The notes under the pieces were generated by a model, which saw only the letters and a list, made by a program, of their open reading frames with translations, was not told the origin of the DNA and made no database searches. Below are positions 3,125 to 24,620 of a stretch of 24,620 nt of DNA, piece after piece. Both the position numbers and the translations under genes were made by a program. This DNA comes from a virus. How positions within the stretch are numbered: position 1 is the first letter of the stretch; the number at the start of each line of letters is the position of its first letter. The DNA is taken from IMG/VR virus record IMGVR_UViG_3300032308_000220, positions 1 to 24,620 of that record; one strand, given 5' to 3'.

Positions 3125-3133
3125 TGTTATACT
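3125..3133 (+). promoter_or_regulatory. Extended -10 promoter for the major tail tube gene
   Basis: TG-T-TATACT fits the extended -10 pattern shared by the other promoter candidates in this window. A weak -35-like CTAACA (4 of 6 matches to TTGACA) lies at 3104-3109, 18 bases upstream. Transcription would start near 3140, giving a leader of about 48 nt with a purine-rich ribosome binding site (AGAGGTG, 3175-3181). Confidence 0.55.
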
Positions 3134-3187: not shown

Positions 3188-3826
3188 ATGGCATATACCC
3201 GTGGTTCGAACGCTAACATCATCGTTGGCGCAGCGGCTCTCTTCACATATGAAGATGGTACGCTTACAGACGCAGACCTTCCAGCATACGAAGCAGCGAC
3301 ATCATTTAGAGAATCTCTAACTGAAGACGCTTCATTCCGCAATGTTGGTTACACCATGAACGGATTGGAACTACAGTTCCAACCTGATTTTGGTGAGGTT
3401 GCAGTCGATCAGGTTCTTGACGTTGCTAAGTTGTTTAAGCAAGGCATGCAGGTTAACTTGAATACTACATTCGCAGAGTCAACTCTCGAAAATCTCTTGT
3501 TTGCTATTGCAGGCAAGGACACAGATCTAACAGCATATAATGCTGCTGGAGCAGGTTCATCAGCACTAAATCTTTCAGCAGGTGACATTGGAGAATGTCC
3601 AGTTGAGCGTGGTCTAGTTGCAGTTGGTCCTGGAACAGGTGACTGCGAAGCAGGTTCATCTATCGAACGTATCTACGTTGCATACCGTGCACTCTCAATT
3701 GAGAATGTTTCAGTATCAGCAAAGCGCGATGAAGCAACAATGTTTGAAGTTTCATTCCGTCTTCTTCCAAATGACTCAGCGTCATACGGTAAGATCGTTG
3801 ATCGTGTAATCCCAGCAGGCGCATAA
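3188..3826 (+). CDS. Major tail tube protein
   Basis: This 212-aa protein lies between the tail-terminator candidate and the tail chaperones, the fixed place of the tube subunit in siphophages. It starts MAYTRGSNANIIVGAAALF and contains tube-protein-like beta segments (YTMNGLELQFQPDFGEV, SIENVSVSAKRDEATMFEVSFRLLP). ATG 3188 is preferred over GTG 3179 because the GTG overlaps the ribosome binding site AGAGGTG (3175-3181). Eight of nine arginine codons are CGT or CGC, against 2 of 11 in the 14879-15604 gene, a sign of selection for strong expression. The gene has its own promoter at 3125 and a strong terminator at 3842, so it can be a monocistronic unit. The fold is not confirmed by search. Confidence 0.8.
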   Translation: MAYTRGSNANIIVGAAALFTYEDGTLTDADLPAYEAATSFRESLTEDASFRNVGYTMNGLELQFQPDFGEVAVDQVLDVAKLFKQGMQVNLNTTFAESTLENLLFAIAGKDTDLTAYNAAGAGSSALNLSAGDIGECPVERGLVAVGPGTGDCEAGSSIERIYVAYRALSIENVSVSAKRDEATMFEVSFRLLPNDSASYGKIVDRVIPAGA

Positions 3827-3841
3827 TATAACTTAATATGC

Positions 3842-3878
3842 GAGAGGCTCAATCCTTCGGGGTTGGGCCTTTCTGTTT
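3842..3878 (+). terminator. Rho-independent terminator with UUCG tetraloop after the tail tube gene
   Basis: AGGCTCAATCC (3845-3855) pairs fully, counting G-U pairs, with GGGTTGGGCCT (3860-3870) around the loop TTCG (3856-3859). Three more pairs (3842-3844 with 3871-3873) extend the stem to 14 bp. The C(UUCG)G loop is an exceptionally stable tetraloop. The 3' side is T-rich (TTTCTGTTT). It lies 16 nt after the tail tube stop. Confidence 0.9.
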
Positions 3879-3886
3879 GGTATACT
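3878..3886 (+). promoter_or_regulatory. Extended -10 promoter giving a leaderless mRNA
   Basis: TG-G-TATACT ends at 3886, and the ATG of the next gene is at 3893, exactly 6 nt later. Transcription normally starts 6-7 nt after the -10, so the mRNA would begin at or next to the ATG. There is no Shine-Dalgarno: the terminator stem of the previous gene fills the upstream space. No -35 was found. Confidence 0.6.
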
Positions 3887-3892
3887 TATATA

Positions 3893-4576
3893 ATGGCTAC
3901 AGAAGTTTATAAAACAAAAATAATATCATTAGTAGATGATACAAAAATAGAGTTATCTCCGCTAAAAATAAAATATCTTAGAAAGTTTATGATTGAGTTT
4001 GAAAATGTTAAATTAGCAGATGGAGATTTAGAGGCTATTTCTGCACTATCTGATTGTGCTATGATATGTATGGAACAGTACAGACCAGAAATTGCAGTTT
4101 CTCAAGAAGTGTTTGAAGAGTATATTAACCTAGAAATAATCTATAGCATTCTTGAAGTTGCAGCGGGAGTTAAAATAAATAAAGACTCAGAAGAAGAAGT
4201 AAAGAAACAGGCAGTAGATAGCGGATCAACCTGGGATGATTTAGATCTTGCAAAACTAGAATCTGAGGTTTTCCTATTGGGAATTTGGAAAGATTATGAT
4301 GAACTAGAAAGGTCATTGTCTATGCCAGAATTAGTACTAACGCTATCAAGCGCAAGAGATCTTGATTATCAGGAAAAGAAATTTTTAGCAGCAATGCAGG
4401 GTGTAGATTTAGACAAGAACAAAAATGAAAAGAATGCCTGGGAAGAGATGAAGGCAAGAGTCTTCTCAGGTGGAAAAGCAACTGATGCAAATGACATTTT
4501 AGCATATCAAGGAGTAAACGCTCAAAAGGCTGGTTTTGGAATCGGCATGGGAATGGATTACGAAAGAATAGGCTAA
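3893..4576 (+). CDS. Tail assembly chaperone, long form (G-T-like)
   Basis: This 227-aa protein has two parts. Residues about 1-98 are the chaperone N-domain and are paralogous to the next gene (about 30% identity by hand alignment, sharing PLKI, FM, DC, QY and PE positions). Residues about 100-227 form a second domain with a helical, charged segment (LERSLSMPELVLTLSSARD, YQEKKFLAAMQGVDLDK) and a Gly-rich end (NAQKAGFGIGMGMDYERIG). In lambda-like phages the long chaperone (gpGT) is made by frameshifting from G; here it is a complete gene. It binds tape measure and tube subunits during tail assembly and is absent from the virion. The start is ATG 3893; an in-frame TTG at 3863 lies inside the terminator and is unlikely. 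Confidence 0.8.
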   Translation: MATEVYKTKIISLVDDTKIELSPLKIKYLRKFMIEFENVKLADGDLEAISALSDCAMICMEQYRPEIAVSQEVFEEYINLEIIYSILEVAAGVKINKDSEEEVKKQAVDSGSTWDDLDLAKLESEVFLLGIWKDYDELERSLSMPELVLTLSSARDLDYQEKKFLAAMQGVDLDKNKNEKNAWEEMKARVFSGGKATDANDILAYQGVNAQKAGFGIGMGMDYERIG

Positions 4577-4591
4577 AAATACGCTTGGCTA

Positions 4592-4600
4592 TGGTATAAT
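4592..4600 (+). promoter_or_regulatory. Extended -10 promoter for the short tail chaperone
   Basis: TG-G-TATAAT is a perfect extended -10. No -35 is visible. Transcription would start near 4607, giving a leader of about 20 nt with a good Shine-Dalgarno (GGAGG, 4616-4620), 6 nt before ATG 4627. This differs from the leaderless arrangement of the paralogous long chaperone. Confidence 0.65.
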
Positions 4601-4626
4601 TAATTAATTCACATTGGAGGAAGTAC

Positions 4627-4938
4627 ATGTCAGAAAAAGTTGAACTATCACTAATCGATGGTACAAAGTTCGAAGCAAAGCCACTAAAAATCTCACTATT
4701 GAAGCCTTTTATGAAGGCGTTCACAGGTTTGGCTGATGTCGCAGAAGATAACGAAAAGTCTATGGATGTATTGTTAGACTGTGTTCAGATTGCGTTTAAG
4801 CAGTATGTTCCAGAACTATCAGAAGATAGAGAAAAACTGGAGGAAAATCTAGACCTTCCTACAGTGTACCAAATTATTGATGCAGCATCTGGAATTCAAC
4901 TCTCAGATCCAGCAGCATTGCTAAGCGCACTAAAATAA
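4627..4938 (+). CDS. Tail assembly chaperone, short form (G-like)
   Basis: This 103-aa protein consists only of the chaperone N-domain and is paralogous to residues 1-98 of the gene at 3893. The start ATG 4627 has a strong Shine-Dalgarno (GGAGG). The two proteins share the pattern SL.D.TK.E..PLKI..L..FM, and both keep DC, QY and PE. Only 23 nt separate its stop from the tape measure start, so there is no room for a frameshift extension into a T-like domain. It is the probable counterpart of lambda gpG, which is needed in excess over the long form. A duplication followed by loss of the C-terminal domain, or gain of it by the other copy, is inferred. Confidence 0.8.
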   Translation: MSEKVELSLIDGTKFEAKPLKISLLKPFMKAFTGLADVAEDNEKSMDVLLDCVQIAFKQYVPELSEDREKLEENLDLPTVYQIIDAASGIQLSDPAALLSALK

Positions 4939-4961: not shown

Positions 4962-7900
4962 TTGTCTGATGTAAATGCAAATATAAGTATCAATTTTGAT
5001 ACTGGTCAAGCACTTGCAAGTTTACGTCAGTTACAGGCGGGTCTAAGCCGTTTTAATCAATCACTAACTCAGGGCAATGTCGCTGCCATGAATGCACAAA
5101 AGGGTCTCAATGACCAACTTATGCAGGCAATCAATGCTACTGGAAAGTTTGTTGCAACTCAAAAGGATATCGCAACAAGCACATCCTCTTTTACGCAAGC
5201 GCTTGAAAAGAATCAACTCTCCATGCGAGAGTACTTTAGGTATACTGCAGCAGCAGCGACTGCAAATACTAAAACCTTTAAAGGTATGTTCGCCCAAGAG
5301 CGTGAGATTATTAATCGTGCTCGCAAAGATAGAGTAAAATCTCTTCAGGCTCAATACATTCAATTGTCAGATGCTTCGGGCAATTTTGTTAAAACTTTGC
5401 AGGTAGTGCCAAAGCATCTCCAGATGGTAAATGGTCAGTACGCAGACTATGCCACAAGAATGCAAATGGCAGCACAAAGACAGCAATTTTTAAATCAGTT
5501 ACTTAAGCAAGGTTCTACACAACTCCTAAACTTTGGTAAAAACACTCAGTGGGCTGGCCGTCAGTTGATGGTTGGTTTGACCATCCCACTAACAATCCTA
5601 GGATCTACTGCAGCCAAAGCATTTATGGAAATGGAACAGGCAGTTGTTAAATTCACAAGAGTTTATGGAGATATGACAACTGGTGGAGACGCAACAAATA
5701 AAGCAATTGCAGATATTCAAAGATTAGGTAAAGAGTTTACCAAGTATGGTATATCAGTAAAAGATACAATGGAAATGGCAGCATCGGCTGCTGCTATGGG
5801 TTTAACTGGTGGAGCATTAAATGCCCAGGTAATCTCAGCAACTAAACTAGCAGTGCTTGGACAGGTTGAACAACAACAGGCATTAGAGACTACTATATCT
5901 TTAACAAATGCTTTTGGTATTGCAACACAAGATTTAGCAAACAAGATTAACTTTCTTAACGCAGTAGAAAACCAGACAGTTCTCTCTATTGAAGACTTAA
6001 CAATTGCAATTCCAAAGGCTGGACCAGTTGTAAAGCAACTTGGTGGATCTGTAGAAGATTTAGCATTCTTCATGACTGCAATGAAGGAAGGTGGAATTAA
6101 CGCATCTGAAGGTGCTAACGCACTTAAGTCTGGTCTTGCTTCTATGATTAATCCTTCAAAAAAGGCTTCCGAATTTCTTGCAGGTCTTGGCGTAAATATC
6201 AAGGGAATTGTAGAGGCAAACAAAGGAAACCTAAAGGGAACAATCGTTGGATTTGCACAGGCACTAGACACACTTGATCCACTTAATCGTGCTCGTGCAA
6301 TCGAACAACTATTTGGAAAGTTTCAGTTTGCTCGTCTATCAACATTATTTCAAAACGTAACAAAAGATGGAAGCCAGGCATCAAGAGCACTTCGTTTAGC
6401 AGGAGCATCAGTTGAAGAACTAGCAATCTTGTCTGAAAGAGAACTTGCAAAAGTAGAGGATGCAACTGGCGTAAAGTTTAAGAAGTCAATGGAAGATCTT
6501 AAGCAGCAGTTAATTCCAATAGGTAAGGCATTCTTACAAGCAGTCACACCAATTGTAGAGTTTGTCGGCAAGATGTTGGAAAAATTTAATAACTTAAGCG
6601 AAGGAACAAAAAAGACTGTAGCAATTATTATTGGTGTTGTTGGAGGTCTTGCTCCAGTTGTATTGATGACATTTGGTTTAGTTATGAACGCTCTTGCAAA
6701 CGGAATTAAGTTATTTGCAAAACTTCGTGAAGGAGTTGCTAAACTTAATGGATCAAATAATGTTCTAGGTGGAGGGTTTGATTATTTAACACAACAAGAA
6801 ATTGAAAACCTTGCACAAACAAATGCGCTGCACACATCACACTCTGAATTAATATCAACATTCAATGTTGAAAAGAGTTCAGTAGATGCGCTTGCAGCAG
6901 CATATGGAAACGCAGCAAGCCAGGCAAGAACTCTCGCAGCAGCATCACCAGGATTGTTTAACGCAGTTCCTGGAGCAACTGGTGCAGTTTCTGGATTACC
7001 TAAAAAGCCATTGGGTTTTGCACAGGGTGGAGTAGTTCCTGGAAGAGGAGATAAAGATACAGTTCCTGCAATGCTTACTCCTGGAGAGGTTGTTCTTACA
7101 AAAGATACAGTAAAAAATAATCCAGAATTAGTTGCAGCACTACAAAATGATTCTTTTAAGAAATACAATAATGGAACTGGTGGAGGCAGTGAAGATATTG
7201 CTGCTACATTAAGAGAAAGGTTTACATCTTCATCTGCACCAGGATCAGAAGCCTTCAAGGGAAGAATGAAAACATTAGTGGATGGGGCCATGTCCCAAAC
7301 ACAAAGAGGTGTAGAAAGAGTAATTAGATTTGCAGCAGAATCAGGAGTAACAATAACTGCTGAGCAAACAGATCAAATAGAGTTCTACAGAAAAGAAATG
7401 CTTAAGTCAATTGAGCAGGCTGGAGAAGCACTTGTTGATGCAATTGATTTAACAAAGGATCAGATCAAAGAGAGACTTAAAACAATGTCTCCAATTGCAG
7501 GAACACAGGCTGCACCAAACAGGAACACATTCGATTTAATTGATAAGCATGGTAGCCAAAACTTGGCTGAAACATTTGGTCACTTAACAGCAGGAAAGAG
7601 AATGTCTGGCGCTCAAACTAAAGAAAGACTAGAGCCAGGATCAAAGGTTGCTACTGAAGTTGATGCAGTAGAGAGAGCAGCAACCTATTTAAATAATCTT
7701 CCAGAGTCTGATCCAAGAAGACCAAAAAAACCAATAATTCCTGAATATAATGTTGTAAGCGGTCTTGGCATTGATGGAATGACTCAAGAGACAAATACAC
7801 TGCTAAGACTTGGAACTAAAAATACACAAGAGTTTTTAAATGAATTAAATAATGTTGGGCCACTGCAAGCGTGGGATACATTAATGCAACAGAACGGCCT

Positions 7901-10900
7901 AACTGTAGAAGAAAATGGTCGAGAAATAGAAATCCTACACGCAAAATTTAAGGCTTTTGTTGCAGACCTTGCAAAAAAGAAAAAAGAAATTTCTGATGCA
8001 GATGTTACAGGATTCCTAACAGGACTAGAGAGTGATCCAGAGATTAGTCCAAGAATGAAAAATGCAGTAAAGAGATCTGGAAACAAAATAACCGCAGCAC
8101 GACTCAGTGGTGTTTCTTCTGTAGATGCAAAAAACATAGAAGAGGTTGTTCGAAGCGGAGAAGTAACAGTTCCTGGCTTACAAGACCGCACAAAGTTTAA
8201 GGTTGCTAAATCTGGTAGTGCACAGGGTGGAGAGTCTGCATCTAACAGAGTTAACGGAATTGGATTCTATGATCAACAAGTAGAAGAAGCATTAGCAGCA
8301 GAAGCAGAAACTCTTAGCCCTCCAAAAGTAAAGGCTACAGAAGAAGACAAAGCACAAGCAGAAGCCGAAGGAGAGTCAATCGGTAAAGCAGCACTTAAGG
8401 GTGTAAGAAAAGGTGCAACTACAGAGTCTCCTTCTAGAGAAGGTAAAGAAGTTGGTAAAGATATTGCAGACGGAATTATTATTGGAATGCAAGAATACTC
8501 CGCAGCAGTTTCTTCTCAGGCTGAAAAACTAGGGTCTGCTGCCGTACCAAAAAGACAAAGAACAGCAGCAGAAACACAAGCAAGAGTCGATAAAATGGAC
8601 ATCGATAACAAGGCTTTCTATGATGATATCGACACTCCAGAATTTCGTGATGAAAGACAAGTTCTTAAGTCTTTAGATAGACAAAGAAGAAAGCGTGGTG
8701 CTGTTCGTCAAGTTGGCGCAGCGATGCCAGCCACCAGCGATCCTTCTCAAACCGCACAACTAACTGTTGCTACATCAAAACAAACTGCAGATGCATCAGC
8801 ACAACTTGCAGTCCAAACAAAGGAAGCAGCAACTGCTCAAGCGCAGATAGTCCAACAAATCAAGGATGAAAGCAGATCAAGAGTTACGATTAAGGGTAAC
8901 ACCGTAAATATTGGCAGGGCTCGTGAAGAAGCAGCAGCAGCAGAAAAAGCATCAGCAGATGCAAGAAAGAAAGCAGCAGCACTTGAAGCAGAGCAAGCAA
9001 AGCAAAAGAAATCAAATTCACCAACAACCATTACTGATGAACAGGTTCTTGAGGCTAAGGAAAAGGCTAATGCTTTAGAATTAGAAGCAGCAAAGAAAAG
9101 ACAAACCGCTGCTATGGCAGAAATTGAGAGAGCAGACCTTGTTGTTTCTGAAGAAGATGTTAAAGATATTGGCAAGGTTCAAAAGATTCAGGATGAAAAA
9201 GAAGAGGTTCTTTCTAACGGAACCCAAGAAGCAGGAGATGGTCTAAGACGAATTGTCGAGGGTACAGATGACACAGCAGAATCAACTCTATTAGTTGCAG
9301 ATCAAACAGATGAACTTGCAAATATAACTGAAGAAGCAGTTACTGCTCAGATGGCAAATACAACCAACCTTCTAACTGGTAGTGAATTAACAAATGCGAC
9401 AACTCAAAATCTTGGAGAAGTTCTTCAAGCAACAGACATGACTGGTTTGGCACAAGGGGATCTTGCAGAATCTTCAGAAAATATTGCTAGACTTAGTGAA
9501 GACATTGAAGAAAAAAAGAAAAAAGAAAATGAATTAGCCAAAAAAAGACTTGCTCGTCTTATGGCTGAAGAATCTGGGGATGGAGTTATTCCTGACGGTA
9601 CGCAATCAGCAAGCAAGTATATTAATCCAGAAGAGGCAATGGGCGCAGAAGAAGCATATGACTATGCAATGGGAAGAGATCCAAATCCAAACGATCCAAC
9701 AGATAAGGGACAGACTGGTTTTACAAAAGATAAAAAAGGTAGAATTCTTATTGATCCAGAAACAGGAAATCCAACACATCTTACAAAAAAGGAACTTACG
9801 CAAAAAAGGCGTGGAATGCGTAGAGAAAAGGTTGGAAAGTTTTCTGGAAAAGCATCAGGAGCATTAGGAACAGCAACAATGGTTGCAGGTATGGCTGGTG
9901 CGCCACCACAGGTAACAGCAGCACTTGGCGCAGCAGCAACAGTAGCCCAGTTCGCTCCAGCACTTGCAGGTATGGGGCCAATCGGTTGGGCAGTAGCAGG
10001 TATCGCAGCAGTTGGAGCATCTGCATATTTAGTAAATAAGCATTTTGAAGGAATGGCAAAAGCACAGGCGGAGTATGTAAGAAACACAACTGCAAGTTCT
10101 GATAAACTCAAGGCTATTGGAGAGTTAAATGGTGTTGTTGGTGCTAACGAAAAAATGAATAAGCGTAGAGAAAATGGACAACTTCAGGGATATAACGAAG
10201 CAGAAAGAAGAGGAACTGACTACGGAGTTAAGTATTTAGAGAATAAAACTGGAAAGTTAATGCTGGACTCTCTTAAGACTAGCATCAACAAGTCTGGAGC
10301 AAAAGAAGCAGCACAAGAGGTTGCACTACAACTTGCTGCACAGGTATCTGATGGAGTCCTTACTGCTGAGCAAGCAAAGAGTGTTGCGTATCAAATTGGC
10401 CTTAACTTAAAAGACTCAACAATGACAATGAATATTAATGGAAGCCTAAGAGCGCTAATTGGTCCAAACGGAGAAGATCTTGTTAATGATCCGTTTACAG
10501 CAAGAATGAGACTTGTTGCGGTTTCAGAAAATAGAACCAAGGCTGCCAAAGCAAATATTAAAAAAGCCCAAAAACAAAATATTGGTTGGTCTTGGATGGG
10601 ACTTAAAAAATCTGGTGCAGCAGAAGCAGCACAAGTTGCAGCATTGTCTAGAGCACAAGTTGAAATGGCTCTACTTCAAGCAGACTCTATGGCTGAATAT
10701 GTTGAAAAACAAAAAGCAACTCTTGAAGCACAAAGAGCAATAACAACAGACAAAGCAAAGCAGTTGGAAATTGATCAAAAACTTGCCAACCTTGATTCTA
10801 TGGCTGCAAGAGCAAATGCAAGAGTTGCTGTATCTGTAGATAATGCTGTTAATCAAACAGATGGAATTATTACTGGACAAAGTGGAATAACAAATTCAAG

Positions 10901-13900
10901 CCCGCTATTAGGTTTATTATCAGGAAAAAATCCTCTTGATTCAATTACAGGTGGTTATGGAGCAACTGGTTCAGGTGCTTTGATGGCTATGAGTGCATTT
11001 TCTCCAATTGGAAGCATTATGGGGGCATTGTTTGATAGGCAGGGAAGAACAGAAGATGCCTACTTTGATGCAAACAAAGACGATGTAAAAGCAAAGTATA
11101 AAGGAACAGCACAAGAAGCATCAGCACAAAGAGTTTTAGACTTAGGTGCAAAAGCAGATGAAGACACATCCTTTAAAGGTGACAAAATTGCTGGAAGAAA
11201 GTTTGAGGCAAAACTTCAAATTCTTATGTCTTCTGGAGTAATGGACCCAGATTCACTAGAAAACCTTCTTAGAGTATTTGGAGGAGATTATAAAAAATTA
11301 AATACCATGCTAACAGTTGGTATTAAAATGCATGGTGGTTCAAAGATGGCAGAACTTACAGGACTGCTAGGGAGCACAAATGACGCCACTGCTAAGAAAA
11401 TAATTGTTCGAATGGTAAGAAAAGATCCAAAAGAATTTGACAAAATAGCAAGAATGCTTGCACTCATTAAGTCATCAGATGGTCTTGAAGTTAACATGGA
11501 CATAATGCTTACAAATATGACCCAGGCCGAACTGGACAAACTTGCAGATAAGTTAGACATAATTGAGAATATGAAAACCCCAATTGAGCAAGAAGTAATT
11601 ATTAAATACGGTAAAGAAAATGGCGTTGATATGCAGGGGCTTATTGATGACTGGGATTATTATAGCAAATTAAAACCAGAAGTAAGAAAAGAAGCAATCC
11701 AGAACTATGTAATGATGAAAGAATTCCTTATGAGTTTTGACAGCCCAGAAGCAAAAAGACAATGGGCAATTGAAACTGCAAGAGCAGAAGCAGAGATGGT
11801 CGGAGAAGAAGGATCGGCAGCCTATGAGAGAAAGTATACAACAACTTTTACTATGATTATGCAAGAGGACACTGGCGCTGCAGCAAGTGGTCTTGTACAG
11901 TCAAAACTTGGTTCTGATCCAACTATAGCAGTAGGTACAGCAACAGGTGATCTTGATGGCAAAGATAAAAAAGAAAGAGATACCACATACGACGACCTAC
12001 TTAAGCGTTTAAGAAATGTTAGAAATGCTGCTATCGATGCTGCTGGAGGAGTCAAAGAACTTAACAAAGCACTATTGGCATCTGGATCAAAGGCAGTACA
12101 AAATAGATTTAAAGGACTTTCTCAGCAACTAAGAGCAAAGGGAGTAAATGAAGAGTTTATTGAGTACTTAAAGGGTCTTGATACAAAAGATTTAAAGAAG
12201 TTTGCATTTACAGCAACAAAAGACGGTACACAAAAATATACAGAAAAGGTTGCAAAAAGAGATAAAGAAGGCAACATTGTTAAAGATAAAAAGGGCAAGG
12301 TTGTATATGTAAATAAGCAGCAGAAGTATAAGGCTGGAGATACTGTATTAACTGACCTTGGAAACCAGATGAAGCGTGGCTACGATAAAGCCATTATGGG
12401 TGAGTTCCAAGAAGCCCAAGAAGTTACAATAAGAAACTTTAATGACCAAGAAAAGGTACAAAGAAAACTGGTTGCTGCTGGATATGACCAAGCGACAATT
12501 CAAAGAATTCTATCTGATGAGATGGCAGTACAAATTATTGCATCAGGACAATTAACAAGCCAAGAGTTAGCAATAAATGCTGCAATAGCAAAACAAGCAG
12601 CAATAAGAGAAAAAGTAAATGGATTAATTAACGCAGGAAAGGACGCCCTTACCCAAGCAGCAAATATAAAGATGGCTCCTAAAGTTCAAGAGTTCTTTAC
12701 TAAGATGAAGGGTCAAGGAATAAACCTTTCCGCAGGAGCGCTAAAAGATTTGCTTACAAATCCAGAACAGTTAGATGGAGCACTAGCAGCAATGAAGGAT
12801 TACGAGTCTGGTGCAGCAGGAGCAAGAGATAGACTACAGGAAATTGTTAATGGACTAAATGCTATTAAAGAAAACTCAAATATTCAAATTGCTATAGAGT
12901 ATGTTCAAAAGAATACTGCTGGAAGAGTCCAGGCGGGATACGAAGCAGCACAAAAGGTAATGGCAGCAAGAACCCTTGCTTATAGCAATATGACTCCTGG
13001 AGAGTTACGAAAGGTTCAAGTAAAAAATCAAAGAACTGGTGTAACAACTAACGCTGGAGAAATTGGATATCAAAATGCTGTAAAGGATAAGTTTGCTGGA
13101 GTAGAAGATCCAACAATTGTTGGTAAGTCTCTTGCTGGTGTTCAAAAAGAAAGAGCAGCCTTAGCACAAAGATCTGCGGTAGCCGCTGCAGCAGCAAATG
13201 TTTCACAACAGATGCTTAGTTCTGCACAAGATGCACTTTCAAAATTGCAAGAAGGTTTGTCAAAGACTCTTGACGGTATTAATAAGAAGTATGATGAAAT
13301 AATTAAGGGACAGCAAAAGAGTATAGATACTCTAAACAAAAGACTTAGTGAAGAGTTTGATAAGAAGATAAAGGCAAAGCAAGAAAGAACTAGCATGCTT
13401 TCTAACGACTTAACCATAATGGATAAGCAAGCAGAGTCTATTAATGAAAAATATGATAAGCAAATAACTGCCTTACAAGAAATTCAAAGAGTTCAGGAAG
13501 CAATTACTGCCCAACAAGAGCAGCAACTAGGACTAGCAGATGCGTTGACTCAGGGAGATCTTTCTGCTGCAGCAGCAGCAGCACAACAAATAAGAGCAGG
13601 TAATGCTGCCCAGTATGGTGGGGGACAACTAGAAGCGCTTGACCTATCAAGAAATAATGAAATTGATTCTTTAAAGGGTGCAGAAAGCGGACTGACAAGA
13701 AAGCAGATTGCAGAAGAACAGTATCAGATACAGCAAGATATTTATAAACTTGAAACTGATCCAGTAAGAAAGACAATACTTGAAGACATTGAAAAACTTA
13801 CAGAAGCAATTGCAAAAAATGAAGAACTACGAACAAAAGAACTTGAAGATGCTGAAAAGAGCATAAAGGCTCAAATAGATGCACAACAACTTGTGGTAGA

Positions 13901-14879
13901 TGCAGCACAGGCTGCTTCAGACATTCACTCAAAGATAACTGCTGATCTTGCTTTGCAGGATGCAGAACTTGCAAGACAAGAAGTAAATTTGCAAGCAATT
14001 GTTGATAGCGTTACAGATGTTGATGATTTTACTGGAATGACACTTGAAGACTGGAAAACTCTTGCAGAAAAAACTCTTGATGTGGACGGACTCATGGCAT
14101 CAATAGCACTTGCAATGGAAGCAAGCGCAAATGAATCAGCAGCAATGGCAAACTCATGGGCAGAAATTCTTAAGATTATTGATGCTCTTCCAGATAGCGT
14201 TACAACAAAGCAAATCATTGATACAATAAATTATGTTAGGACAATAAATGTTCCAAGTGATCAAGATCCAGATACATATTATCCACCAGAAGATACTCCA
14301 GAAGATGATGCAAACCTTGATGCACTTGTTGCAGCAGCACAAGCACAAGATGCAGCACAAGCAGAAGTAGATGCTGCACAACAAGCATATGATGACGCAG
14401 CAAATAGAGGAGAATGGTATAAGTTTAGTTCACTGTTGGCTACTTTATCTGCAGCAAAAGCAAAACTAGCAGATGCAACTGCTGCTTATAACGCAGCAGC
14501 AGCAAAGGGTGGAACAGGAACTGGATCAGGATCTGGCGGAGGCAGTGGGGGCGGATCTACGCACATGCAAATGCTTGCATCTGGTGGAATTGTTAATCCA
14601 ATGAAGTTTGCTATGGGTGGTTTTGCAAGTGGTTCAGATACCGTTCCTGCGATGCTTACTCCTGGAGAATTCGTAATGAGTAAGTATGCAGTACAGTCTT
14701 ACGGTCTTGATAAAATGAAAGCAATAAATAATGGAAGCCCAGTCGGGGGAGATTCAGTGTATAATTATAGTGTCAGTGTTGCTGTGCAGTCAGATGCTAA
14801 TCCAGATGAAATTGCAAGAGCAGTAATGAGACAAATAAGACAAGTAGACTCACAAAGAATTACGGGGAACAGAAACTAA
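4962..14879 (+). CDS. Tail tape measure protein, very long (3305 aa)
   Basis: This protein sets tail length and passes through the tube during DNA ejection. Residues about 197-470 match the tape measure core seen in TP901/PhageMin-tail proteins (WAGRQLMVGLTIPLTILG, then TVLSIEDLTIAIPKAGPV and GGINASEGANALKSG). Hydrophobic stretches at about 551-586, 1627-1694 and 1980-2027 could insert into a membrane. SPSREGKEVGKDIADGI (near 1156) is a recurrent tape measure motif. Ala/Glu/Lys-rich coiled coils lie near 1320-1395 and 2727-3014. A Gly/Ser linker (about 3182-3201) precedes a C-terminal DTVPAMLTPGE motif (3226-3236), with another copy at 699-709. I saw no lysozyme, transglycosylase or peptidase motif. 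The start is TTG 4962 with AGAGGG upstream; no in-frame ATG lies nearby. Confidence 0.93.
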   Translation: MSDVNANISINFDTGQALASLRQLQAGLSRFNQSLTQGNVAAMNAQKGLNDQLMQAINATGKFVATQKDIATSTSSFTQALEKNQLSMREYFRYTAAAATANTKTFKGMFAQEREIINRARKDRVKSLQAQYIQLSDASGNFVKTLQVVPKHLQMVNGQYADYATRMQMAAQRQQFLNQLLKQGSTQLLNFGKNTQWAGRQLMVGLTIPLTILGSTAAKAFMEMEQAVVKFTRVYGDMTTGGDATNKAIADIQRLGKEFTKYGISVKDTMEMAASAAAMGLTGGALNAQVISATKLAVLGQVEQQQALETTISLTNAFGIATQDLANKINFLNAVENQTVLSIEDLTIAIPKAGPVVKQLGGSVEDLAFFMTAMKEGGINASEGANALKSGLASMINPSKKASEFLAGLGVNIKGIVEANKGNLKGTIVGFAQALDTLDPLNRARAIEQLFGKFQFARLSTLFQNVTKDGSQASRALRLAGASVEELAILSERELAKVEDATGVKFKKSMEDLKQQLIPIGKAFLQAVTPIVEFVGKMLEKFNNLSEGTKKTVAIIIGVVGGLAPVVLMTFGLVMNALANGIKLFAKLREGVAKLNGSNNVLGGGFDYLTQQEIENLAQTNALHTSHSELISTFNVEKSSVDALAAAYGNAASQARTLAAASPGLFNAVPGATGAVSGLPKKPLGFAQGGVVPGRGDKDTVPAMLTPGEVVLTKDTVKNNPELVAALQNDSFKKYNNGTGGGSEDIAATLRERFTSSSAPGSEAFKGRMKTLVDGAMSQTQRGVERVIRFAAESGVTITAEQTDQIEFYRKEMLKSIEQAGEALVDAIDLTKDQIKERLKTMSPIAGTQAAPNRNTFDLIDKHGSQNLAETFGHLTAGKRMSGAQTKERLEPGSKVATEVDAVERAATYLNNLPESDPRRPKKPIIPEYNVVSGLGIDGMTQETNTLLRLGTKNTQEFLNELNNVGPLQAWDTLMQQNGLTVEENGREIEILHAKFKAFVADLAKKKKEISDADVTGFLTGLESDPEISPRMKNAVKRSGNKITAARLSGVSSVDAKNIEEVVRSGEVTVPGLQDRTKFKVAKSGSAQGGESASNRVNGIGFYDQQVEEALAAEAETLSPPKVKATEEDKAQAEAEGESIGKAALKGVRKGATTESPSREGKEVGKDIADGIIIGMQEYSAAVSSQAEKLGSAAVPKRQRTAAETQARVDKMDIDNKAFYDDIDTPEFRDERQVLKSLDRQRRKRGAVRQVGAAMPATSDPSQTAQLTVATSKQTADASAQLAVQTKEAATAQAQIVQQIKDESRSRVTIKGNTVNIGRAREEAAAAEKASADARKKAAALEAEQAKQKKSNSPTTITDEQVLEAKEKANALELEAAKKRQTAAMAEIERADLVVSEEDVKDIGKVQKIQDEKEEVLSNGTQEAGDGLRRIVEGTDDTAESTLLVADQTDELANITEEAVTAQMANTTNLLTGSELTNATTQNLGEVLQATDMTGLAQGDLAESSENIARLSEDIEEKKKKENELAKKRLARLMAEESGDGVIPDGTQSASKYINPEEAMGAEEAYDYAMGRDPNPNDPTDKGQTGFTKDKKGRILIDPETGNPTHLTKKELTQKRRGMRREKVGKFSGKASGALGTATMVAGMAGAPPQVTAALGAAATVAQFAPALAGMGPIGWAVAGIAAVGASAYLVNKHFEGMAKAQAEYVRNTTASSDKLKAIGELNGVVGANEKMNKRRENGQLQGYNEAERRGTDYGVKYLENKTGKLMLDSLKTSINKSGAKEAAQEVALQLAAQVSDGVLTAEQAKSVAYQIGLNLKDSTMTMNINGSLRALIGPNGEDLVNDPFTARMRLVAVSENRTKAAKANIKKAQKQNIGWSWMGLKKSGAAEAAQVAALSRAQVEMALLQADSMAEYVEKQKATLEAQRAITTDKAKQLEIDQKLANLDSMAARANARVAVSVDNAVNQTDGIITGQSGITNSSPLLGLLSGKNPLDSITGGYGATGSGALMAMSAFSPIGSIMGALFDRQGRTEDAYFDANKDDVKAKYKGTAQEASAQRVLDLGAKADEDTSFKGDKIAGRKFEAKLQILMSSGVMDPDSLENLLRVFGGDYKKLNTMLTVGIKMHGGSKMAELTGLLGSTNDATAKKIIVRMVRKDPKEFDKIARMLALIKSSDGLEVNMDIMLTNMTQAELDKLADKLDIIENMKTPIEQEVIIKYGKENGVDMQGLIDDWDYYSKLKPEVRKEAIQNYVMMKEFLMSFDSPEAKRQWAIETARAEAEMVGEEGSAAYERKYTTTFTMIMQEDTGAAASGLVQSKLGSDPTIAVGTATGDLDGKDKKERDTTYDDLLKRLRNVRNAAIDAAGGVKELNKALLASGSKAVQNRFKGLSQQLRAKGVNEEFIEYLKGLDTKDLKKFAFTATKDGTQKYTEKVAKRDKEGNIVKDKKGKVVYVNKQQKYKAGDTVLTDLGNQMKRGYDKAIMGEFQEAQEVTIRNFNDQEKVQRKLVAAGYDQATIQRILSDEMAVQIIASGQLTSQELAINAAIAKQAAIREKVNGLINAGKDALTQAANIKMAPKVQEFFTKMKGQGINLSAGALKDLLTNPEQLDGALAAMKDYESGAAGARDRLQEIVNGLNAIKENSNIQIAIEYVQKNTAGRVQAGYEAAQKVMAARTLAYSNMTPGELRKVQVKNQRTGVTTNAGEIGYQNAVKDKFAGVEDPTIVGKSLAGVQKERAALAQRSAVAAAAANVSQQMLSSAQDALSKLQEGLSKTLDGINKKYDEIIKGQQKSIDTLNKRLSEEFDKKIKAKQERTSMLSNDLTIMDKQAESINEKYDKQITALQEIQRVQEAITAQQEQQLGLADALTQGDLSAAAAAAQQIRAGNAAQYGGGQLEALDLSRNNEIDSLKGAESGLTRKQIAEEQYQIQQDIYKLETDPVRKTILEDIEKLTEAIAKNEELRTKELEDAEKSIKAQIDAQQLVVDAAQAASDIHSKITADLALQDAELARQEVNLQAIVDSVTDVDDFTGMTLEDWKTLAEKTLDVDGLMASIALAMEASANESAAMANSWAEILKIIDALPDSVTTKQIIDTINYVRTINVPSDQDPDTYYPPEDTPEDDANLDALVAAAQAQDAAQAEVDAAQQAYDDAANRGEWYKFSSLLATLSAAKAKLADATAAYNAAAAKGGTGTGSGSGGGSGGGSTHMQMLASGGIVNPMKFAMGGFASGSDTVPAMLTPGEFVMSKYAVQSYGLDKMKAINNGSPVGGDSVYNYSVSVAVQSDANPDEIARAVMRQIRQVDSQRITGNRN
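7056..7087 (+). repeat. Direct repeat copy 1 inside the tape measure gene
   Basis: This 32-nt segment encodes DTVPAMLTPGE at residues 699-709. It matches 14637-14668 at 30 of 32 positions. The copies are 7581 nt apart, a multiple of three, so recombination between them would keep the frame. Confidence 0.85.
14637..14668 (+). repeat. Direct repeat copy 2 inside the tape measure gene
   Basis: This is the C-terminal copy, encoding DTVPAMLTPGE at residues 3226-3236 after a Gly/Ser-rich linker. It differs from the copy at 7056-7087 at only two positions, both silent third-codon changes. Confidence 0.85.
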
Positions 14880-21827: not shown

Positions 21828-21836
21828 TGGTATAAT
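21828..21836 (+). promoter_or_regulatory. Extended -10 promoter, near-leaderless
   Basis: TG-G-TATAAT is identical to the site at 4592. ATG 21846 begins 9 nt after the -10, so the leader would be about 0-3 nt. No Shine-Dalgarno precedes the ATG. No -35 was seen. Confidence 0.65.
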
Positions 21837-21845
21837 AGAATAACT

Positions 21846-22289
21846 ATGCCAAATATTCCACCATTGCCTGAGCGTGGCCAGCCACTAGATGTATCATATA
21901 TATATAAAATTGTCGAAGCATTGACAGACATTAATAATGCTATTACTGTTTCAACTGGAAAAACAATAACAATTGACACAGTAGCAACAGGACCGCAAAG
22001 CGGAAAAACATCAGATGCCAAAATTATTGGTGGATACAAAGAAATTGTTAGCGGTACAAGCGTAACGGCTGGAGAAGAAAAATCTTTTGATTATTCATTT
22101 TCTGATTATAAATATCCACCAGTTGTTACTGCCACAGCAGTAAACATAAGCGGATCAGATGCAGGTAAAAATGTGTCTATTGTTTTAAAGCCAGTATCAA
22201 CCAATAAAGTTGAAGGTGTTGTTAGATTTAATTCAGCAGGTAATGCTACCTTGGGAATTAACCTTGTGATAATTGGTATACCTAATTAA
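21846..22289 (+). CDS. Beta-rich virion protein, possible lectin-like adsorption protein
   Basis: The protein has 147 residues. Residues about 1-40 form a helical start (PERGQPLDVSYIYKIVEALTD). The C-terminal 80 or so are strongly beta-patterned (FDYSFSDYKYPPVVTATAVN, VSIVLKPVSTNKVEGVVRFN, LGINLVIIGIPN) and resemble an H-type-lectin-like or receptor-binding sandwich. The YPPVVTA segment echoes the strand with Pro-Pro-Val found in such domains. It has its own near-leaderless promoter and follows the tail-tip genes, so a late structural or adsorption role is inferred. The fold and ligand are not established. Confidence 0.55.
   Translation: MPNIPPLPERGQPLDVSYIYKIVEALTDINNAITVSTGKTITIDTVATGPQSGKTSDAKIIGGYKEIVSGTSVTAGEEKSFDYSFSDYKYPPVVTATAVNISGSDAGKNVSIVLKPVSTNKVEGVVRFNSAGNATLGINLVIIGIPN
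22274..22282 (+). promoter_or_regulatory. Extended -10 promoter giving a leaderless mRNA
   Basis: TG-G-TATACC ends at 22282, and the next ATG is at 22289, 6 nt later, the same geometry as the site at 3878. GGTATACC is also an 8-bp perfect palindrome. It lies inside the last codons of the preceding gene. The final base of the -10 is C, not T, so it is a weaker match. Confidence 0.4.
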
Positions 22290-23191: not shown

Positions 23192-23499
23192 TGGCAGAAC
23201 GCAAAGACCGAATGGCTTTGCTTTCAAGATACAGCAAGTATCACACTGCAAGGTATGAGTCAAAGCCATCACTTAATTTAAATGTAGAACAATGGGCTGC
23301 AGATGGACTTATAGAGTCTTATGGGATTTCTGGTTGCTACGATCTGCTAGAATATTACTTTAAGGTAGCAGAGACACCATCATGGAATTATTTTTCTTAT
23401 AATGCTGAAAAAATATTGCAGGCACAAAAAGATAGAATTAGAGACGATCAAGAAAGAATAGAGCGCAGACGAATGGCAAAGGAGTGGTTGAGTGAATAA
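23191..23499 (+). CDS. Probable helicase loader / replisome accessory protein
   Basis: This 102-aa protein lies immediately before the DnaB-type helicase and overlaps it by 8 nt. The pattern, an N-terminal helix (ALLSRYSKYHTARYESKPSLN), LNVEQWAADGLIESYG, DLLEYYFKVAETPSWNYFSYNAEKIL, and a charged C-terminal helix (KDRIRDDQERIERRRMAKEWL), recalls small proteins next to replicative helicases in actinobacterial phages that act as loaders or partners. ATG 23191 shares a base with the previous TAA. Function is inferred from place and pattern; no ATPase motif is present. Confidence 0.55.
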   Translation: MAERKDRMALLSRYSKYHTARYESKPSLNLNVEQWAADGLIESYGISGCYDLLEYYFKVAETPSWNYFSYNAEKILQAQKDRIRDDQERIERRRMAKEWLSE

Positions 23500-24620
23500 C
23501 ACAGAGGGAAAACTATTATCAGCAGTCCTTCAAGATAAGCAAATCCACGTTCTTTTACAAAACAACATAGACTCACTTCTAAGAACACACACAGATATCT
23601 GGAACTTTATTAGGCTGTACTCAGAACAAAATGCAGCGCTTCCACCAGCATCTTTAGTTGTGGAAAAGTTTAGAGACTTTGAGCCAGTCAAAGATGTTGG
23701 ATCAACTAAGCATCATCTTGCTGAGTTGCAAACCGAATATCTAAACGACAGCCTAAAGGATATTCTTAGATCCGCTGCAGCAGATGTGCAATGTGGTAAT
23801 GGCAATGTTGCACTAGAAACTCTTATAACCAAGACATCCGAACTAAAGAAGAACACATCAACAATTCGTGATATCGATGTTACAGATTTAGAATCTGCAC
23901 TTGCATACTTTGAAAATGTTAAAGAGCAACAGGCATTAGGTCATGTTGGAATTAAGACTGGTCTTCCAGGATTTGACAATTATCTTCCTTCTGGAATCAT
24001 GCCAGGACAACTTGGAGTTTTCCTTGCATATCCAGGAATCGGAAAGTCTTGGCTTGCTTTGTACTTTGCAGTGCAAGCCTGGAAGCAAGGCAAATCTCCT
24101 CTTGTAATTTCTCTTGAAATGTCTGAGACAGAAGTTCGTAATCGTGTATTTACAATTATGGGAGAAGGTCTTTGGTCCCACAGAAAGATCTCTAACGGAG
24201 AAATTGAGTTGGATATGCTAAAGTCATGGCATGCAAAAAATCTTCAAGGTAGGCCAGAGTTTCACATTATTTCAAATGATCAAGGTGGAGAGATTAATCC
24301 TTCAGTACTTCGTGGAAAGATTGATCAGTACAAGCCAGACTTTGTAATCGTTGACTACCTTCAGTTGATGGCTCCTAACCAGAAGTCAGATAACGAAACG
24401 GTACGAATGAAGAACCTTTCACGAGAACTTAAACTTATGGCAATTGGTGAAGAAGTTCCTATTATTGCTATCTCATCTGCTACACCTGACGATGTAAAAG
24501 ACCTAAGTACACCTCCGACACTTGGACAAACCGCTTGGTCTAGACAGATCTCATACGATGCAGATTGGCTATTAGCGCTGGGTCGTGGAACTAACAGTGA
24601 CATTATTGAATGTGTATTTA
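23492..24620 (+). CDS. DnaB-type replicative helicase (partial, 3' end beyond window)
   Basis: An open frame runs from GTG 23492 to the window end (376 complete codons). AAAGGAG (23478-23484) precedes the start, which overlaps the previous gene by 8 nt. The N-terminal 140 or so residues are helical, as in the DnaB N-domain. The RecA-like core has a Walker A at residues 181-186 (PGIGKS, lysine 185) and a hydrophobic Walker B ending in Asp 288 (FVIVDYLQLM). The region GIKTGLPGFDNYLPSGI fits the start of the helicase C-domain. It unwinds DNA at the replication fork and likely works with the small protein encoded upstream. The last part, including the remaining motifs, lies outside the window. 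Confidence 0.92.
   Translation, partial: MNNTEGKLLSAVLQDKQIHVLLQNNIDSLLRTHTDIWNFIRLYSEQNAALPPASLVVEKFRDFEPVKDVGSTKHHLAELQTEYLNDSLKDILRSAAADVQCGNGNVALETLITKTSELKKNTSTIRDIDVTDLESALAYFENVKEQQALGHVGIKTGLPGFDNYLPSGIMPGQLGVFLAYPGIGKSWLALYFAVQAWKQGKSPLVISLEMSETEVRNRVFTIMGEGLWSHRKISNGEIELDMLKSWHAKNLQGRPEFHIISNDQGGEINPSVLRGKIDQYKPDFVIVDYLQLMAPNQKSDNETVRMKNLSRELKLMAIGEEVPIIAISSATPDDVKDLSTPPTLGQTAWSRQISYDADWLLALGRGTNSDIIECVF

Follow-up and report, generated by a model that had tools for sequence, protein, structure and literature searches.

A short tail assembly chaperone gene and its fused long paralogue as a probable replacement for programmed frameshifting in a group of environmental phages

The window, which is the whole 24,620-base stretch of a metagenomic virus record analyzed here, carries two candidate tail chaperone genes placed between those of the major tail protein and the tape measure protein. 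The order is major tail gene, 227-aa ORF, 103-aa ORF, and tape measure gene, and all genes, domains and signals described for this region lie on the plus strand. The upstream neighbor (3188..3826) encodes an Ig domain family protein that matches phrog_2175 (E 2e-30) and, more weakly, major tail protein families, and it is syntenic with the annotated major tail protein of Stanwilliamsviridae. The first of the two central genes (3893..4576) encodes a long, gpGT-like putative tail assembly chaperone in which a G-domain and a T-domain are fused in frame, and the second (4627..4938) encodes a short, gpG-like paralogue. An initial annotation, made from the window alone, had described ORFs of these same lengths, and the coordinates agree with it. 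The tape measure ORF (4962..14879) starts at TTG 4962, which confirms the 23 nt that the annotation had counted between the short gene and the tape measure. This ORF matches phrog_10030 (E 2e-75), other tape measure families, and Pfam PhageMin_Tail (E 1e-26), and its product is the expected client of both chaperones. With 3,305 aa the tape measure protein is very long, which implies a long tail. No tRNA or Rfam matches were obtained in the window.

The domain make-up of the two proteins establishes which part is shared and which part is additional. Residues 1-97 of the long protein (3893..4183) constitute a G-type N-domain, as delimited by profile-profile comparison, and residues from about 111 to 227 (4223..4573) constitute a T-type C-domain that matches phrog_10474. 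The long N-part and the short protein both match phrog_10504, and the C-domain is present in the long form only. Assignment of the C-part to a different family was a hint that it exists as a separate ORF in other phages, and the -1-frame T ORFs of Stanwilliamsviridae share 41-46% identity with the T-type domain of the window. The initial annotation had regarded the two N-domains as paralogous on the basis of about 30% identity over 88 aa. This view is strengthened by BLASTP, in which the aligned 87 aa are 36% identical (E 3e-18), and by profile-profile alignment of 22 long with 15 short members of the family, which gives a probability of 99.8% (E 4e-28) over 97 columns. Judged by these alignments, the two N-domains are truly paralogous.

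AlphaFold models of the long and short proteins both show two strands followed by helices. In the GT N-domain, pLDDT is about 70 over residues 1-10 and 86-95 over residues 11-100; it is roughly 65-80 in the T domain, with a low C-terminal tail, and averages 81 for the short G. The HK97 tail chaperone gp13 (2OB9) was the top VIA-align match for both models, with weak Z values of 4.6 and 4.3 that might reflect a common helical arrangement. For the short G, matches also included 3D8L (phage p2 ORF12) and 3FGX, the latter a phage tail chaperone according to PMC9603447. A search of a viral structure library returned a 'Tail assembly chaperone' match (E 8e-6). No significant match was obtained with Foldseek against the PDB for either model, with the G profile against PDB sequences, or among Pfam and NCBIfam families for the long or the short protein.

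Relatives of the long protein belong to two types of loci. In tblastn searches the protein matched 127 Streptomyces phages, many with annotated tail assembly chaperones, and among the matches listed it aligns in two pieces, mostly under two adjacent genes whose annotation reads tail assembly chaperone or hypothetical protein. Five Stanwilliamsviridae were read in detail; the second piece is a -1-frame ORF that overlaps the 3' end of the first, and none of the five holds a second G copy. The two ORFs are annotated as a joined CDS in Patelgo (Stanwilliamsviridae) and in the Rhodococcus phages NiceHouse and Francesca. Once environmental contigs are included, the frameshift type comprises 38 distinct loci, all 38 with T in the -1 frame. 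The overlap holds a slippery X_XXY_YYZ heptamer in 30 of them, mostly C_CCA_AAT/C or G_GGA_AAC, and C_CCG_GAA in the remaining 8. This type occurs in cultured Stanwilliamsviridae, in Trinavirus, and in some environmental phages. One of its members (L247), the sole locus from the genome-contig search, lies on a contig labeled as an uncultured cyanobacterium MAG, which is probably a phage contig binned with a host or misbinned.

The second type has the architecture of the window. Several hundred stretches matched in scans of IMG/VR, and the best 80 per scan were fetched. Profile classification of the resulting 329 loci, a redundant set, assigned 270 to the order [GT][G] and 44 to the order [G][T] (39, plus 5 in which the G match was split in two). 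Of the remaining 15, 11 were [GT] loci cut off shortly after T, 3 began within the region, and one was NiceHouse, in which G has diverged too far to be recognized by the G profile. No [G][T][G] locus was present among the 329, and consequently the two arrangements are mutually exclusive. Removal of duplicates left 161 distinct fused loci (61 representatives at 82% similarity), all with a fused GT followed by G and the tape measure gene; the short G is found in all fused loci that extend far enough. The initial annotation had proposed a survey of related phages for the same gene pair, and these 161 loci provide it. Furthermore, its claim that paralogous genes stand in the place of a frameshift is sustained by the existence of the 38 frameshift loci beside the lineage with fused GT and G.

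The start signals of the two genes are conserved and differ in kind. A terminator-like hairpin, formed by a stem-loop at 3842-3873 and a T-rich tail (3842..3880 overall), lies between the major tail gene and GT, and a hairpin of this type precedes GT in 159 of 160 distinct loci, as compared with 30-46 in first-order Markov controls. An extended -10 element, TGG-TATACT (3878..3886), conserved in position in related loci, ends 6 nt before the ATG at 3893, and there is no ribosome-binding site. Since TATACT ends at 3886, a transcription start 7 nt later would coincide with the A of this ATG, and the GT transcript is therefore predicted to be leaderless. In 156 of 161 distinct loci the start of GT is preceded, at 5-8 nt, by a -10-like box (TANAHT). 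At that spacing the box precedes 2.0% of the other ATGs of these loci (23,611 in total) and none of the 161 short G genes, so its presence before GT is not due to chance. Shine-Dalgarno-like sites before GT were absent throughout (0/161). The leaderless-type spacing noted in the initial annotation recurs in most of the related loci.

The short gene is preceded by an extended -10 element, TGG-TATAAT (4592..4600), and by the ribosome-binding site GGAGG (4616..4620). The TATAAT hexamer and the GGAGG site had been recorded in the initial annotation, and both signals are conserved: TGnTATAAT is found 24-35 nt before the start of G in all 161 distinct loci, and a Shine-Dalgarno-like site in 160 of them. 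Most frameshift relatives likewise display, by eye, a leadered -10-like box and a ribosome-binding site upstream of G. One fused locus (L037) has two other genes (1,221 nt) between GT and G, and retention of the G promoter and ribosome-binding site despite this insertion argues that G is an independent unit. The inserted genes (4729-5800 of L037) encode two proteins. One, of 204 aa, matches phrog_274 (labeled DNA endonuclease V) and has a weaker match to a 2OG-Fe(II) oxygenase family; the other, of 154 aa, matches phrog_20220. The inserted genes carry their own TGATATACT box and RBS-like site.

Phylogenetic trees of the G and T domains describe the history of the pair. The GT N-domains form one clade in the tree of G-domains (support 100/99) and the short G proteins form another (100/97). 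The short G clade joins the G of the environmental frameshift phages L267, L283, L303, L299 and L315 at 87-88, and the GT N-domain clade sits on a long stem (0.62). The tree of T domains places the fused T in one clade (100/96) with the frameshift-type T of L268, L283, L299 and L315, with L267 and L303 outside it, and as drawn implies 4 state changes (2-4 in bootstraps). The branch that unites the GT N-domains, the short G and the near frameshift G is without support (35/10). An exclusive sister relationship of the GT N-domains and short G (AU p 0.55) is not rejected, nor is a single clade of all frameshift G (p 0.37). Both trees rest on about 100-120 columns and have long branches, and they do not fix the finer order of events. 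All parts are under purifying selection, with median dN/dS of 0.06 for the GT N-domain, 0.06 for T, and 0.09 for short G. Overall, these phylogenetic patterns favor one duplication of a frameshift gene inside the clade, the G clades speaking for a single origin, with the GT N-domain as the diverged copy and the short copy close to the ancestor. Frameshifting appears to have been replaced once, and the replacement to have been kept afterwards in a large group of related phages.

We propose that the two genes constitute a tail assembly chaperone set, with a short gpG and a long gpGT that were derived from one duplicated frameshift gene and acquired separate start signals, a reading to which we assign a probability of roughly 0.8. 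The ancestral single gene would have produced both forms by -1 frameshifting. A single duplication would then have allowed one copy to become the in-frame G-T fusion and the other to lose its T extension and slippery site. GT would be expressed from a probably leaderless transcript that starts just past the terminator. For G, the signals would be a consensus extended -10 and a strong ribosome-binding site on a leadered transcript, and transcription that continues from the GT promoter would probably contribute as well. Under this arrangement G would predominate, with GT as the minor form. Both would assemble on the tape measure protein, GT bringing in tail subunits through its T domain and G coating the tape measure, as in lambda (PMC5009743).

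The G:GT ratio is likely set by promoter and initiation, a supposition that fits the conserved promoter and ribosome-binding site asymmetry. Transcripts that run on from the major tail gene would give rise to little GT, because GT has no ribosome-binding site. Since actinobacteria can translate leaderless genes efficiently, a low level of GT is not guaranteed. A more specific proposal combines a leaderless minor GT, free of a ribosome-binding site and located behind a terminator, with a leadered major G and its strong site. The type of initiation would act as a dial of stoichiometry, GT would be shielded from read-through, and the frameshift would have been replaced once only. We consider the chances of this full combination to be evenly balanced.

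Both proteins could also act as chaperones without their ratio being set by promoters, if one polycistronic transcript covered the two genes and they differed in translation initiation or in protein stability. A terminator between GT and G occurs in only 1 of 160 loci, so that transcripts of GT probably enter G, and the sharp difference in ribosome-binding sites between the two genes would suit such an arrangement. The TGnTATAAT element, however, is universal in the fused loci, keeps a steady distance from the start of G, and persists in L037, all of which indicates that G has its own promoter. A purely polycistronic origin of the ratio is therefore rather unlikely. It is a good deal less probable that the short gene is a paralogue with a new task, no longer equivalent to gpG, and that the fused gene alone serves as chaperone. 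The modest identity of the N-domains (~36%), their separate clades, and the long stem of the GT N-domain would agree with a change of task. It is the GT N-domain that diverged, however, and the short G groups with the G of frameshift phages, keeps a leadered promoter and ribosome-binding site of the kind seen in those relatives, lies directly before the tape measure gene, and is present in every fused locus of sufficient length.

A hidden frameshift could in principle still operate in one of the genes, with the second copy being redundant, and slippery-like heptamers do occur near the 3' end of 21/161 G and 9/161 GT genes. However, the shifted frames end a median of 10-23 nt past the stop of either gene, and no fetched locus has a T-like ORF after G. 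The initial annotation had argued that there is no room for a frameshifted extension, and this argument holds. The long form of the window does not need a programmed frameshift, with T already in frame with G, and the short gene lacks T in all frames. Furthermore, codons at 4906-4914 of the short gene read GAT CCA GCA where frameshift relatives have GAC CCA AAT at the same place, so that Asp-Pro is kept and the slippery heptamer is gone. The resulting T_CCA_GCA (4908..4914, located by eye), which occupies the position of C_CCA_AAT/C in those relatives, is possibly a vestige of the ancestral slippery site. We accordingly reject a frameshift in either gene as highly improbable. An artefact of assembly or sequencing, by which an indel joined G and T or mis-assembly doubled G, might be suspected in a metagenomic virus record but is refuted by the occurrence of the same structure in 161 distinct loci on independent contigs, where a linker has been added, dN/dS is low, and the separate signals are conserved.

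It is instructive to compare the pair with known systems. Chaperones of the gpG/gpGT type characteristically bind the tape measure and major tail proteins and are absent from the virion, and production of their long form by programmed frameshifting is usual but not universal. The G/GT frameshift of lambda type is described as widely conserved among long-tailed phages, and in lambda itself gpG and gpGT occur at a ratio of about 30:1 and bind the tape measure (PMC5009743). The likeness lies in two forms that share an N-domain and of which the longer also has a T domain; the difference lies in their origin, which is a -1 frameshift in one gene of lambda and two genes in the window. Stanwilliamsviridae have clearly homologous T and G domains and Trinavirus a homologous T domain with a weakly homologous G domain, in both cases at the same place between the major tail and tape measure genes, but in these phages a -1 frameshift (at C_CCA_AAT, G_GGA_AAA, and similar sites) operates in one gene, and there is no second G. 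Microbacterium cluster EA1 phages have no evident frameshift either (PMC7302621). However, the second ORF of their pair (AlexAdler genes 15 and 16) consists of the T part only and does not represent a paralogue of G; in AlexAdler it shares 79% identity with the T part of Casey. A split into G and T of this kind was rejected for the window, where T is fused to a G-type N-domain instead of forming a separate protein without one.

A close parallel is found in T4-like phages, which represent another phage lineage. Vladimirov, Gautam and Davidson reportedly assigned the T4 chaperone pair to genes 26 and 51 in 2022. Our comparison identifies gp26 and gp51 as distant paralogues (20% over 161 aa, E 1e-5). 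A passage in PMC10885494 that cites Vladimirov et al. (2022, Virology 566:9-15) relates that separate genes for the short and long forms, without frameshifting, were proposed in some T4-like phages, and that the long chaperone is there the short form fused to a downstream part. Separate short and fused-long paralogous genes without a frameshift are thus common to both systems, but in T4 the two genes, 26 and 51, are on opposite strands, whereas the pair of the window is co-directional and adjacent to the tape measure gene. Searches with the G and T profiles found no match to T4 gp26 or gp51 at E 10, a test at the sequence level that is compatible with remote kinship; given this lack of sequence homology, an independent case is likely.

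Separate short and fused-long genes as such are therefore reportedly known already from some T4-like phages. What is new is an apparently independent case in which frameshift relatives survive and in which a leaderless and a leadered promoter are paired; no earlier description of this replacement was found in the literature examined. Survival of frameshift relatives within the same family makes the replacement traceable. A large group of environmental phages without the frameshift offers a natural experiment on whether it is the frameshift itself or the protein ratio that is important, and the leaderless and leadered gene pair suggests a way to fix stoichiometry. Annotators should also be warned that a fused long chaperone with a short paralogue must not be forced into a frameshift call.

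Two further features of the window lie outside the chaperone region. A 376-aa ORF that is open at the window end (23492-24619) resembles, by eye, a DnaB-type replicative helicase and is located directly 3' of small genes of unknown function. Extended -10 elements of the TGnTATAMT type are also present upstream of the major tail gene (3125-3133), upstream of the ORF at 63 (37-45), and at 21828-21836, 9 nt before the ATG of the ORF at 21846, which suggests several short late promoters of this type in the window.
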